NCBI GenBank assembly: GCA_027310565.1
Contig: DAIDAP010000036.1
Span: 26,896-90,895 of the forward strand
Direction of reading: 5' to 3'
Source: Chloroflexota bacterium
GTDB lineage: Bacteria > Chloroflexota > Limnocylindria > P2-11E
Length of the DNA: 64,000 bases
A program made the position numbers and the translations under genes. The notes under the pieces are model-generated. The model had not been told where the DNA came from. It was given only the letters and a program-made list of their open reading frames with translations, and searched no databases. The stretch's first letter is position 1. Each line of letters opens with the position of its first letter. This document shows positions 5,147-35,195 of this stretch, in pieces.

Positions 5147-6295
5147 CTAGGCCAGCGCCAGCAGGGCGTGCAGCGCGGCCTCGTACACGTGGTCGAATCC
5201 GGCGATGGTGAGCTCTTCGGCCATGAGATCCTCGACCGCCGGCGCGGGCAGGGGCACGACGCGCAGCGACCGTACGCGCCCGTCGAGGAGGACCGTCGCG
5301 GTGACGTGGCGCTCGTCCGGCGCCCGCTTGAGCACGAACTCGGCGACCTCGCCACGGCGCCGGCACCGGAGGCGGAACCCGGTGGTGTCCCCCGGCGCGA
5401 CGCCGCGCTCGAAGCGCGGGCGCACGCGGACGGCCAGCGGCGTGCCGTCGGCGCGCGTCATCCGGAAGAGCAGGCCGCCCGCCTCGGCGGGCGCGAGGCT
5501 CTCCGCGGGCCGCCACCCCAGACGCGACGTGAGCCACCCGACGAGGAGCAGCGCCTGCGAGGGATGGATGTCGCGGCCGTCCATGTCGACGCCGAAGCCG
5601 ACGCCGACGCCGATCGTCGCGTCGAGGAACGGCCGCCAGGCCTCGACGTCGAAGAACTGCGCGACGAGCTCGCGCCACGGGGTGAGCCGGGTCCAGTTGA
5701 GATCCGTGATCGCGATGCGCCCGCCGTCGCCGCGCCCGACGAGGCGCGCGAGGTGCGCGAGCGTCTCGGCCGGACGCGCGAAGTCCGCCGAGTCGACGAC
5801 GAGCCGGTCCGCGAGCGCGACGAGGTCGTCGAATCGCCGCGCCCGAGGCGGCGGCGAATCGGTCCACCAGAGGAACACCGGAAGGTCGGGGACGAGCAGC
5901 GGGATGACGACGCTGCGCAGGCGCGCGTCGTCGTCGTCGCGCACGCGCACGAGGATCTGCTCGCAGCGGCACACGCCGGCGCGGTCGTCGACGCGCGGGA
6001 TCCGGCAGCGCAGGTCGAGGTCCGCCGGTGGACCGCCGGGATCGCGGTCACGCCACACGACGATCGCGCGCGAGGGATGCCGCTGCGCCAGCCGGACGAT
6101 GCCGCGCGCCGCGCGCTCGGCGTGGACGCCGCGCTCGGCGTAGACGACGACGTTGAGCACGGCCGCCCGCGCGACCGTGTGGCCCTGCTCGCGCGCGTGC
6201 GCCCCGGCCGCGTGGCGCAGCCGCGCGAGCTCGCGCTCGAGCGCGCCGACGCTCGGGGCGGCCGTACCCCACACGGCCTCGTCGACGGCCGTCAT
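5147..6295 (-). CDS. opcA: Glucose-6-phosphate dehydrogenase assembly protein OpcA
   Basis: 382 aa from the ATG at 6295, which overlaps the zwf stop in an ATGA; the track start four codons earlier is less likely. OpcA is a required activator/assembly factor of Zwf in cyanobacteria and actinobacteria. Family features: N-terminal helical region, NVVVYAERGVHAERA and RHPSRAIVVWRDRDP, CRCEQI, the VIPLLVPDLPVFLWWTDSPP core, and DLNWTRLTPWRELVAQFFD. The position directly after zwf is the usual one. The C-terminal 130 residues (RRRGEVAEFVLKRAPDERHV) correspond to the second OpcA domain. No catalytic activity is expected. Confidence 0.93.
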   Translation of the reverse strand: MTAVDEAVWGTAAPSVGALERELARLRHAAGAHAREQGHTVARAAVLNVVVYAERGVHAERAARGIVRLAQRHPSRAIVVWRDRDPGGPPADLDLRCRIPRVDDRAGVCRCEQILVRVRDDDDARLRSVVIPLLVPDLPVFLWWTDSPPPRARRFDDLVALADRLVVDSADFARPAETLAHLARLVGRGDGGRIAITDLNWTRLTPWRELVAQFFDVEAWRPFLDATIGVGVGFGVDMDGRDIHPSQALLLVGWLTSRLGWRPAESLAPAEAGGLLFRMTRADGTPLAVRVRPRFERGVAPGDTTGFRLRCRRRGEVAEFVLKRAPDERHVTATVLLDGRVRSLRVVPLPAPAVEDLMAEELTIAGFDHVYEAALHALLALA

Positions 6296-31867: not shown

Positions 31868-32853
31868 CTCCGCTGGCGGCGGTCGCGGCCGCCGCGGCGC
31901 CCCCGACGGCGCTTGCGCCGGGCTCCGTCCTCGCCGACGGGGGTGGGGCGCTCCATGCGCGGCACCTCGTCGCCGCCGTAGGAGCCGACGCCGCGCGTGT
32001 GCGCGCCGACGCGCGAGAACTCGACGCCGAGCTCTTGCGCGGTGATCTCCGCCCGTCCGCCGGTCGCGAGCTCCACGACCACGGCCTCCTTCACGACGTT
32101 GGTGCCCTGGGTCACGGCGCAGCCGCTCGTGCCGCACTGTCCGCCCTGGCAGGAGGGGATGTGGAACACCTCGCCGACCTTCGGGAGCTTCCCCTTGACC
32201 TCCTGGTAGGTCTCGAGCTCGTAGATGAGGCAGCACTTGAGACGCCCGCACACGCCGGTGAGCTTGGCCTGGTTGAGCGGCAGGTCCTGCTCCTTCGCCA
32301 TGCGGATCGATATGTTCGAGAACTTGTCGAGCCAGCTCGAGCAGCAGAGCTCGCGCCCGCACGTCCCCACGCCGGTCATCACCTTCGTCTCGTCGCGCGC
32401 TCCCAGACGGCGAAGCTCGATGCGCGTGCCGAACCGTGCCGCGAACGCGTCGGTGAGCTCGGCGAGGTTGAGCCGGTCCTCGCTCTGCTGCGAGTAGAAG
32501 ACCGTGAGCGCGGTGCCGTCGAACTGCCAGTCGCAGCCGAGCACCTTCAGCGGGAGCCCGCGCTCGCGCACCATCCCCGCCGCCGTGACCGCGGCCTCGG
32601 CCTCCATCCGCTTGCGTCTGTTGATCTCGAGCACGTCCGACGCGGTCGCCTTGCGCTCGACGACGCCGAGCGGCATGTCGACCTGCACGAGCGGCGAGTC
32701 GGTGGGGAGGATCTGGATCCGGGCGGCGTCGAGGCCGACCTCGGTGCGCACTATGACCCACTGGTTGATCGTGAAGTCGCCGATCTGACCGGGCTCGAAG
32801 AAGTACATGCGGCCTGCCTTCGCGAAGCGGACGCCGACGACCGTGCGCATCAT
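31864..32853 (-). CDS. ricT: PSP1 domain protein (RicT/YaaT type)
   Basis: 329 aa; the track start is far upstream in antisense text. Start ATG-ATG at 32853 overlaps the holB stop (ATGA). PSP1 core: GKV/FAKAGRMYFFEPGQ, DWQFDGTALTVFYSQQSEDRLNLAELTDAFAARFGTRIELRRLGARDETK, then the cysteine-rich region GVGTCGRELCCSSWL...GVCGRLKCCLIYE, which in Bacillus RicT/YaaT holds iron-sulfur clusters. The tail is Arg-rich. In Firmicutes this protein forms the Y-complex affecting RNase Y and phosphorelay. The holB-ricT order matches Firmicutes. Confidence 0.93.
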   Translation of the reverse strand: MMRTVVGVRFAKAGRMYFFEPGQIGDFTINQWVIVRTEVGLDAARIQILPTDSPLVQVDMPLGVVERKATASDVLEINRRKRMEAEAAVTAAGMVRERGLPLKVLGCDWQFDGTALTVFYSQQSEDRLNLAELTDAFAARFGTRIELRRLGARDETKVMTGVGTCGRELCCSSWLDKFSNISIRMAKEQDLPLNQAKLTGVCGRLKCCLIYELETYQEVKGKLPKVGEVFHIPSCQGGQCGTSGCAVTQGTNVVKEAVVVELATGGRAEITAQELGVEFSRVGAHTRGVGSYGGDEVPRMERPTPVGEDGARRKRRRGRRGGRDRRQRS

Positions 32854-33887
32854 GCGGCGGCCGCCAGGTCCGCGCGGTAGGGGAGCCGCAGCGCGAGCAG
32901 CTCCAGCAGCATGCGCGCGCTCACCGTCGTCTCGACGACGTCGCGCCGCCAGCGTTCGAACGCCTGCGCGAGGTCGACCAGCTCGCGTCCGCCGGTGCTG
33001 GCGGCGAGCTTCGCCGACTCGGCCGCGCGCTCGGGGCGCACGGCCCGCTCGGGCGCTCCCGCCGCGACGAAGGCGGCGTCGCGCAGCAGCTCGCCCCATT
33101 CGACGAGGCGGGTCTCGATCTGCGCGCTGCGCTTCTGCGTGTCGGTGCGCGACTCGGCGAGGTCGGCGGCCCACGCGAAGCGGTCGGTGAGCCGGCTGGC
33201 CACGAGCGTGTAGAACTCGCGCTCGAGCGCCCGCCGCGCCTCGCGCTCGGCCTCGTCGATCGCCAGCCGGATCGCGACACCCGGCTTCCCGGCGGCCGCC
33301 GCCGCGTAGCGCGCGGCGTCGGGGCCCAACCGCGCGACGAGCGCCGCCTCGATCTCGGCGCGCGGCACGGGGCGGAACGGGATCGGCTGCACGCGCGAGC
33401 GGATCGTGTCGAGGAGCCGCGAGGGCGTGGGGGTCACCAGGAGGAGACACGCGTGCGCCGGCGGCTCCTCGAGCGTCTTGAGCAGCGCCGTCTCGGCGTG
33501 CTCGGAGAGGTCGGCCGCGTCGTCGATGATCACGACGCGGGTGCGGCCCTCGAGCGGGCGCAGCGCGAGATCCTGCTGCATCGCGCGGACCTGCTCGATG
33601 CTGATGTTCTTGCGGTCGTCGCGCGTGCCGCTGTCCACCAGGCGCGTCACCTCGCGGACGTCCGGATGCAGGCCGCGCTCGATCTTCCGGCAGGCGACGC
33701 ATGCGCCGCAGCCGCCGCTCACGCGCGGCTCGCGATCGCAGTTGAGCGTCTGCGCGAGCCGGATCGCGACGGTGTGCTTGCCGATCGAGCGCGGTCCGCT
33801 GAGCTCGTACGCATGGGCAACGTCGCCACGGACCGCCTGGTCCCCGAGCCTGTCGAGGAGGCGACGCTGCCCGATGACATCTCGCAT
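32850..33887 (-). CDS. holB: DNA polymerase III delta-prime (clamp loader) subunit
   Basis: 345 aa. Clamp-loader ATPase-like subunit: MRDVIGQRRLLDRLGDQAVRGDVAHAYELSGPRSIGKHTVAIRLAQTLNC, zinc module GGCGACVACRKIERGLHPDV, RTRVVIIDDAADLSEHAETALLKTLEEPPAHACLLLVT, and TIRSRVQPIPF (sensor). The P-loop is intact (GPRSIGKHT), as is usual for Firmicutes/Chloroflexota HolB. Coupled to ricT by a 4-nt overlap. Confidence 0.93.
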   Translation of the reverse strand: MRDVIGQRRLLDRLGDQAVRGDVAHAYELSGPRSIGKHTVAIRLAQTLNCDREPRVSGGCGACVACRKIERGLHPDVREVTRLVDSGTRDDRKNISIEQVRAMQQDLALRPLEGRTRVVIIDDAADLSEHAETALLKTLEEPPAHACLLLVTPTPSRLLDTIRSRVQPIPFRPVPRAEIEAALVARLGPDAARYAAAAAGKPGVAIRLAIDEAEREARRALEREFYTLVASRLTDRFAWAADLAESRTDTQKRSAQIETRLVEWGELLRDAAFVAAGAPERAVRPERAAESAKLAASTGGRELVDLAQAFERWRRDVVETTVSARMLLELLALRLPYRADLAAAA

Positions 33888-33913
33888 CGGGTCAGGGCGA
33901 TTCTATGCTCTCG

Positions 33914-33994
33914 CTAGCAGCAGGGCTCGTCGCTCTGCGGCGGGCAGCAGACGGGTGAGGGACAGCACGGCTGCGGGCAGCACGGCTCGCTCAT
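33914..33994 (-). CDS. 26-residue cysteine-pair peptide in the arsenic operon
   Basis: Too short for the track. It reads MSEPCCPQPCCPSPVCCPPQ followed by SDEPCC: four CC pairs, eight cysteines in 26 residues, with Pro spacers. It has the strongest Shine-Dalgarno of the region, GAGAAAGGAGG, 6 nt before the ATG, and this site lies on the stop codon of arsR, so translation is coupled. The gene follows arsR by 14 nt on the same strand and stops 27 nt before holB. Vicinal dithiols bind As(III) tightly, so an arsenite-binding, metallothionein-like or chaperone role is the natural inference. No family recognised. Confidence 0.7.
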   Translation of the reverse strand: MSEPCCPQPCCPSPVCCPPQSDEPCC

Positions 33995-34008
33995 CGGGGC
34001 CTCCTTTC

Positions 34009-34353
34009 TCAGCGCAGCGCGTCGACCAGACGCCGGATGTGCGCCGGGAGATGCGGCGTGAGACGGTAGTACGTCCAGATGCCGCGGCGCGTCGCCTCCA
34101 CCAGCCCGGCGTCGCGGAGCTTCCCGATGTGGTGCGAGATGGTCCCCTGCGTGAGGCCGAACGTCGCGGTGAAGTCGCAGACGCACGCCGGCTCGGTCGC
34201 CTCGCGCAGCGCGAGGACGATCTGCAGCCGCGTCGGATCGGCGAGCGCCCGGAGGACGGCCGCGAGCTCGCCGGCGCGCTCCGCGGGCAACTCGGGCTCG
34301 AGCGCGCAGCACACGCCACGCTCACGGTCCGGAAGGATCCGCGCCGCGCTCAT
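34009..34353 (-). CDS. arsR: Arsenical-resistance regulator ArsR
   Basis: 114 aa from the ATG at 34353. Winged-helix repressor: LRALADPTRLQIVLALREATEPACVCDFTATFGLTQGTISHHIGKLRDAGLV. The metal site CVCDF corresponds to the ELCVCDL arsenite motif of plasmid R773 ArsR, and a further pair is present in GVCCALEPEL near the N-terminus. It should release its operator when As(III) binds. It is divergent from arsM across an operator and co-transcribed with the 26-residue peptide. Confidence 0.95.
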   Translation of the reverse strand: MSAARILPDRERGVCCALEPELPAERAGELAAVLRALADPTRLQIVLALREATEPACVCDFTATFGLTQGTISHHIGKLRDAGLVEATRRGIWTYYRLTPHLPAHIRRLVDALR

Positions 34354-34360
34354 CGCGGCG

Positions 34361-34389
34361 ATCGTAGCAGACCCATTGACGACTATCAA
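34361..34389 (-). promoter_or_regulatory. arsR promoter TTGATA-17-TACGAT
   Basis: On the minus strand TTGATA and TACGAT are 17 nt apart. The -10 ends 7 nt before the arsR ATG, so the mRNA is probably leaderless. The -35 overlaps the ArsR operator candidate, as expected for self-repression. Confidence 0.6.
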
Positions 34390-34391
34390 TG
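34374..34391. promoter_or_regulatory. Candidate ArsR operator CATTGA-N6-TCAATG
   Basis: Six-base perfect inverted arms with a 6-nt spacer, in the layout of known ArsR operators. It lies between divergent arsR and arsM, covering the arsR -35 and a TTGACG that could be the arsM -35. Confidence 0.6.
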
Positions 34392-34442: not shown

Positions 34443-35195
34443 ATGAGCGAACTCCAGGAGGCGGTGCGCGCGAGGTACGCCGAGCGCGCGCTGCGGATGG
34501 CGAAGACACCGGGGAGCTGTTGCGACGACGCGGGCTCGACCCGCGACGCCTACAGCGGCGAGGAGCTCGCGAGCGTCGGCCTCGGTCCCGCCGCGAGCCT
34601 CGGCTGCGGGAACCCGACCCTGCTCGCCGACCTCCGTCCCGGTGAGCGCGTGCTGGATCTGGGGTCCGGCGCGGGCGTCGACGTGCTGCTCTCCGCGCGC
34701 CGCGTGTCGCCCGGCGGGCACGCCTACGGCGTGGACATGACCGACGAGATGCTCGCGGTCGCGCGCGAGCACCAGCGCCGCGCGGGCATCGCGAACGCGT
34801 CGTTCCACAAGGGCACGATCGAGGCGCTGCCGCTCGACGACGCGAGCGTCGACGTCGTCATCTCGAACTGCGTCATCAACCTCGCGGCCGACAAGCGGGC
34901 GGTGCTCCGCGAGGCGTTCCGGGTGCTCCGGGATGGCGGACGCCTCGCGGTCGCCGACATGGTGGCGCTCGAGGAGCTGGCGCCGGCGGCGAAGCGGCGC
35001 CTCGACCTGTGGGCCGGCTGCGTCGCCGGGACGATCACGGTGGAGGAGTACGCCGCCGCGCTGCGTGAGGTCGGCTTCACGGACGTCGCGATCGAGGTGA
35101 CGCGCGAGGTCACGCTCGACGGCGTCGCCGGACGGATCGCGAGCGCCTACCTGAGGGCCCGCAAGCCGTCGCGGGACGTGACCGCCGCGGCGTAG
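34443..35195 (+). CDS. arsM: Arsenite S-adenosylmethionine methyltransferase ArsM
   Basis: 250 aa from the ATG at 34443 behind GGGAGG; the track start 18 codons earlier lacks a site. Methylates As(III). Cysteines expected for the arsenic site are present in GSCCDD, LGCGNP, SNCVINL and DLWAGCVAG. SAM motif I is ERVLDLGSGAGVDVLLSARRV. Its promoter region includes the CATTGA-N6-TCAATG operator and a perfect 16-bp palindrome GCGCCGCCGGCGGCGC (34413-34428) in the 5' leader. The last 49 nt overlap the end of the GT4 gene on the other strand. Confidence 0.94.
   Translation: MSELQEAVRARYAERALRMAKTPGSCCDDAGSTRDAYSGEELASVGLGPAASLGCGNPTLLADLRPGERVLDLGSGAGVDVLLSARRVSPGGHAYGVDMTDEMLAVAREHQRRAGIANASFHKGTIEALPLDDASVDVVISNCVINLAADKRAVLREAFRVLRDGGRLAVADMVALEELAPAAKRRLDLWAGCVAGTITVEEYAAALREVGFTDVAIEVTREVTLDGVAGRIASAYLRARKPSRDVTAAA

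Follow-up and report, generated by a model that had tools for sequence, protein, structure and literature searches.

The ars locus studied here lies on a window of 64,000 nucleotides, the whole stretch of DNA that was analysed, and consists of a repressor gene, a methyltransferase gene that diverges from it, and a very small Cys-rich gene directly behind the repressor gene. The genes and signals of this region are listed below.

32850..33887, minus strand: holB, the DNA polymerase III delta-prime subunit, the usual downstream neighbour of the ars locus in this family
33994..33914, minus strand, stop codon included: a 26-codon mini-gene encoding MSEPCCPQPCCPSPVCCPPQSDEPCC, with eight Cys as four CC pairs
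33995..34008, minus strand: the intercistronic gap from the arsR stop to the peptide start, with an AAGGAGG Shine-Dalgarno sequence
34009..34353, minus strand: arsR, an ArsR/SmtB-type repressor of 114 aa with C15-C16 and a CVC motif (PF01022; NF033788 above cut-off)
34361..34389, minus strand: a sigma-70-like promoter, TTGATA-17-TACGAT, for arsR and the peptide gene, overlapped by the putative operator
34375..34390, no strand assigned: the palindrome ATTGACGACTATCAAT between arsR and arsM, identified from the sequence and from relatives
34443..35195, plus strand: arsM, an arsenite S-adenosylmethionine methyltransferase of 250 aa (NF008823, 282 bits against a cut-off of 263)

Translation of 33994..33914 on the minus strand gives MSEPCCPQPCCPSPVCCPPQSDEPCC, in which eight of the 26 residues are Cys and each of the four CC pairs is flanked by proline on one or both sides, confirming the initial annotation in this respect; the initial annotation named no strand, and the plus strand at 33914..33994 is broken by a stop codon in that register. 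The peptide ATG lies 14 nt downstream of the arsR TGA, with the AAGGAGG sequence 5 nt upstream of it. The duplex formed by this Shine-Dalgarno sequence with the anti-Shine-Dalgarno has an energy of −11.6 kcal/mol, the lowest among 12 starts scored (a few of them approximate), followed by arsM at −10.3 kcal/mol, and the earlier claim that it is the strongest such signal of the region is borne out.

The same scoring finds no Shine-Dalgarno sequence at the starts of arsR and holB, as expected if both are leaderless, and arsR looks leaderless. A TAGAAT(C)-like element ∼10–20 nt upstream of the holB start, with no Shine-Dalgarno sequence (33887-33910 in the window), is found in many genomes of the family; leaderless transcripts are suggested to be common there. 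The palindrome ATTGACGACTATCAAT is the probable ArsR operator, and similar palindromes lie between arsR and arsM in most of the relatives for which the intergenic region was read. In the window's genome, G000, arsM diverges from arsR and its product has no C-terminal Cys tail. holB is a flanking gene, outside the arsenic function.

Comparisons with related genomes indicate that the 26-codon reading frame is almost certainly a real gene. Six close homologues come from a sister genus within the family (one each in G128, G129, G131 and G137, and two copies in G134) and two looser ones in G135 and G144, all of them in arsR-arsM loci. Conservation of the CC pairs beside ars genes in related genomes was a point on which the initial annotation had staked its claim, and the claim survives. 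Across seven homologous genes, pS is 0.58 and pN 0.12 (pN/pS ∼0.20), and the variable sites number 5, 7 and 19 at the three codon positions, with 19 of 24 third positions variable; the other reading frames drift, or are interrupted by stops in some members. Purifying selection acts on the peptide reading frame. An alignment of six sequences contains 15 invariant columns, and MSEPCCPQPCCPSPVCCPPQSDEPCC fits the family pattern E-P-C-C-P-x-P-C-C-P-x-P-x-C-C-P-P ... P-C-C-stop beside arsM or arsR, in which conservation extends past the cysteines to the prolines and the P-C-C end. G+C-rich DNA does yield chance CCP-like readings, which make up most matches of a wide scan, but the idea that the peptide is such a spurious ORF is effectively refuted by the codon-position pattern, the pN/pS ratio, the conserved Shine-Dalgarno sequence and the specificity for the locus, no comparable Cys-rich mini-ORF being found behind any of ∼952 non-ars ORFs in related DNA.

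That wide scan, for CCPxxCCPxxxCC across 84,980 species, gave matches of which nearly all those listed are out-of-frame or compositional; the clear family members among the matches listed come from only three contigs, in the same family of soil Chloroflexota. Weak matches at class and phylum level (E 0.02 to 1) were not taken as homologues, and inspection of the class-level sites revealed no small multi-CC ORF. Plasmids gave no match to the peptide by tblastn, for which a 26-residue query is insensitive. The peptide matches no family in Pfam or NCBIfam at E≤1, so that the earlier statement that it has no described family holds for these two libraries, and 10 mini-peptides compared with them at E≤10 gave no relevant family. 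Two other Cys-rich sequences were noted: L194, from the pattern scan, encodes a secreted-looking protein with CCPRTCCPKPVCC directly after a signal-peptide-like start, and a long ORF of Streptomyces monomycini (L112, minus strand, near 5195 of the reverse complement) ends in the dense Cys run DCDCCDSCECCNCCPDSCCPDSCCCDGCCCDC.

The placement of the gene varies between relatives. Among the homologue carriers it lies directly behind arsR only in G000; in G129, G131, G134, G137, G135 and G144 it follows arsM with a 4-nt ATGA or GTGA overlap and is itself followed by holB, and in G128 it is upstream of arsM and divergent from arsR. The ars transcript ends with this gene in G000 and in most relatives. 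The ars loci at holB in G139, G140, G132, G136, G138 and G150 have no detectable peptide, and in G141 a short sequence downstream of arsR, GACGAACCCATGCTGCTGA, may be what is left of the ...DEPCC end. Close relatives that lack the peptide at the corresponding syntenic position show that it is dispensable, and the variable placement and the absences together mark the gene as accessory, its constant being the ars locus. The coupling to arsR proposed in the initial annotation is therefore upheld in part: the spacing of 14 nt is real in G000, but the arrangement is not conserved, and the homologues have arsM rather than arsR as their neighbour.

Cys-rich elements are also found on ArsM itself. Among 103 ArsM coding regions of the same class, which come from related, non-independent genomes and make Fisher values for tails and mini-ORFs optimistic, 48 encode a tail in which at least three of the last 20 residues are Cys, and in a further 9 the number is two. 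The same test is positive for 22 of 958 long ORFs and for none of 12 paralogous methyltransferases; 3 of 40 ArsM from other Chloroflexota classes, a sample that is not random, also have such a tail. The tails are of the types CCGGxGCC, CGCGxGGCC and CGPDCC (class examples L077-L086 and L250-L335, e.g. CCGGSGCC and CGCGSGGCC). Several g2 ArsM (L067, L068, L069, L071, L072) are ∼330–350 aa long and have an extra N-terminal segment (e.g. ...LVAAEQVCCATSRWELHREGDEVRVTV...).

A Cys-rich mini-ORF stands directly behind arsM in 9 of the 103 regions, the frequency being 8/46 behind tail-less ArsM compared with 1/57 otherwise. Scoring of the 958 control ORFs for mini-ORFs gave six positives, all six of them ars genes, and hence none for the ∼952 that are non-ars. 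The other mini-peptides have no evident homology to that of the window. They include MTSCDCPCGPDCPCGG, MSACDCPCGPSCPCGC and MLSRSIDAECGPECPDCGPDCPCEC; MDENTVASAVPQDCCGDCCCEGCGDDCDGCC, upstream of arsM in the order-mate G127; MTTSCTDCCCDKHCCGCGTR, behind arsR in G058; and MRNNDGCCDGNCDCAGGACC / MRHDDGCCDGGCDCGPGCC, divergent from arsR in G165 and G171. Tail and mini-gene are present together in G058, G060, G165 and G171. In G146, a Cys-rich mini-gene for 40 residues, MSELTTGQTTKDASGDCTCCSDGCCPACATLPCCDEATSC, lies across the operator from arsR and just before holB (L313:1978-2100). No arsM was found in this genome, which is 70% complete; the 40-codon gene may stand alone, or it may be what remains, in remodelled form, of the 5' end of an arsM since lost. 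On a quick tree with many unresolved forks, tails require 11 changes and mini-genes 8, and both likely arose several times.

None of arsA, arsB and acr3 lies within the ars locus of the window, and Acr3 was found neither in the G000 genome (97.5% complete) nor in any peptide carrier; it is present in 1 of 28 family genomes, and its cut-off is exceeded in 14 of 177 class genomes. Two ArsB-family proteins of G000 were rejected as ArsB, since they score 118 and 115 bits where the cut-off is 415. The genome encodes ArsB/NhaD-superfamily transporters at G000:C36:139301-140542 and G000:C8:396036-397148 (L311, L312), for which MamN is the nearest model and which fall below all cut-offs. A role as efflux donor, one of those first suggested for the peptide, is unlikely because neither Acr3 nor a true ArsB was found in G000, its ArsB-like proteins scoring well short of the ArsB cut-offs; a pump from outside these families may be present.

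We conclude that the peptide very likely has an arsenic function and that it probably binds trivalent arsenic. Our preferred reading, to which we give a probability of about 0.6, is that it may serve as an ArsR-controlled thiol carrier or buffer for As(III) and MAs(III), working with ArsM. We favour it because the peptide appears to be strongly translated, has four CC pairs and stands under an ArsR-type promoter, with ArsM as the sole enzyme encoded by the locus. Cys elements that form part of ArsM, or that follow its gene, speak for a peptide acting at the enzyme, through substrate hand-off and the holding of MAs(III); that the peptide acts mainly there, and not as a bulk sink, we rate as an even chance. 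Of the roles first proposed, arsenite buffer and ArsM chaperone are still the best readings, and the link to ArsM has been strengthened by the overlap with arsM in relatives and by the Cys tails of ArsM.

The proposed mechanism would begin with arsenite releasing ArsR from its operator in the arsR-arsM intergenic region, whereupon the arsR-peptide mRNA and arsM would be made together. The peptide would then be translated from its very strong Shine-Dalgarno sequence, probably aided by ribosomes finishing arsR, and its proline spacers should hold it extended. As(III) favours three thiolates and methylarsenite two; the four CC pairs could chelate the former through three thiols or the latter through two. 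The peptide would keep arsenic bound to thiols, which is how ArsM accepts it as substrate, and would retain the toxic MAs(III) intermediate until its further methylation. Arsenite-dependent expression, arsenic binding and hand-off to ArsM are steps that we infer from the genes and their arrangement. The peptide would in this way be a detached counterpart of the Cys-rich C-terminal tail carried by many ArsM of the same class. Comparison of CCGGxGCC and CGCGxGGCC with the CCPxPCCPxPxCCPP of the peptide, however, shows that CC pairs are all that the listed tails have in common with it, and since there is no evident alignable sequence the counterpart is one of functional analogy only.

The main rival, left standing by the arrangement in G146 and by the missing pump, is that the peptide is a bulk arsenic sink, a metallothionein-like molecule that merely lowers free cytosolic As(III) and has no specific dealings with ArsM. 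Sequestration would help a cell in which no efflux pump is found, the Shine-Dalgarno sequence of the peptide is very strong, the G000 peptide is carried on the arsR transcript and not on that of arsM, and in G146 a Cys-rich mini-gene faces arsR where no arsM was found. On the other hand, in many relatives ArsM bears a Cys tail of its own, and mini-genes lie against arsM so that start and stop codons overlap; this suggests that the element works close to the enzyme and in amounts that match it. We consider a simple sink a serious but doubtful explanation. It is improbable that the peptide is instead a redox partner, whose CC pairs would shuttle disulfides and re-reduce the catalytic cysteines of ArsM between methylation steps while carrying no arsenic. 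Although thiol reductants are needed for turnover of ArsM/AS3MT, and a C-terminal Cys368-Cys369 disulfide is present in human AS3MT (PMC4211708), four CC pairs exceed the needs of a redox arm, the peptide has no CxxC motif and no thioredoxin-like fold, and G146 has a Cys-rich mini-gene in a genome in which arsM was not detected.

The position of mini-genes directly behind arsR in G000 and G058, the latter encoding a non-homologous peptide, would suit a partner of the sensor that tunes induction by bringing As(III) to ArsR or stripping it off, but most relatives have the peptide behind arsM, on the opposite side of the divergent promoter, and we regard such a role as very improbable. A Cys-codon leader peptide acting as an attenuator, and not as a functional protein, could be imagined for a short Cys-rich frame upstream of arsM, as in G128 and G127; it is rejected because of the gene order, the peptide gene being the last of the ars transcript in G000 and most relatives, with downstream a holB that is unrelated to arsenic and has its own TAGAAT-like element just before its start, and residues other than Cys (the prolines and the P-C-C end) are conserved.

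A more general proposal can be put forward very tentatively, and to us seems on balance unlikely. It is that the class as a whole uses dedicated gene-encoded polythiol carriers for arsenic methylation, invented several times, in the form of an ArsM tail or of a 16-40-codon ArsR-controlled gene, and that these replace efflux pumps and glutathione-type carriers. In the literature on Cys-rich small proteins in ars and arsM operons nothing matching was found, most subscription papers lying outside the search, and according to a 2025 study no specific gene for intracellular arsenic sequestration is known in ars operons (PMC12093948). If our preferred reading, as a carrier or buffer, is correct, the conserved gene for the eight-Cys peptide, placed beside arsR and arsM, would fill that gap, and biosensors and clean-up could draw on the peptide as a minimal natural scaffold that binds arsenic. 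Together, the peptide and the ArsM tails make testable how ArsM is supplied with thiol-bound arsenite, and how methylarsenite is contained, in bacteria with no recognised arsenite pump. Genes this small are overlooked, neither of the two family libraries having a match.

Several known systems share features with the peptide. The bacterial metallothioneins SmtA/BmtA and MymT are small, Cys-rich, gene-encoded binders of soft metals, and SmtA is under the control of an ArsR/SmtB-family regulator. The peptide is likewise small and gene-encoded, with a high Cys fraction (about 30%), but it is shorter, has CC pairs with Pro spacers, is tied to arsenic genes and matches no Pfam or NCBIfam family. ArsD, a folded arsenite metallochaperone of ∼120 residues with a role in efflux, uses vicinal Cys pairs to pass As(III) to its same-operon partner, the ArsA ATPase; the peptide too has vicinal Cys pairs, four CC, in an ars operon and adjoining arsR, whereas it has only 26 residues and its locus has no arsA, arsB or acr3. 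The C-terminal Cys pair of MerA provides an analogue for hand-off. Phytochelatins are likewise short peptides with many thiols and detoxify As(III) (PMC9917255), but are enzymatic products of glutathione, whereas the peptide is genetically encoded. Arsenic- or metal-linked selenoprotein families (ArsM/AhpD, the UXPK-star methyltransferase and the Cys-Cys-COOH SaoC) have extra Cys/Sec elements, some of them on ArsM-like domains (PMC13188914); in comparison, the peptide has no evidence of selenocysteine, no fusion and no model match. The tails of arsenite methyltransferases resemble the peptide in their CC pairs, although it is a separate gene and sequence homology to the tails is not evident. 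Among parts already described, the closest is the Cys368-Cys369 pair at the C-terminus of human AS3MT, demonstrated by mass spectrometry (PMC4211708), which is a tail and not a gene.
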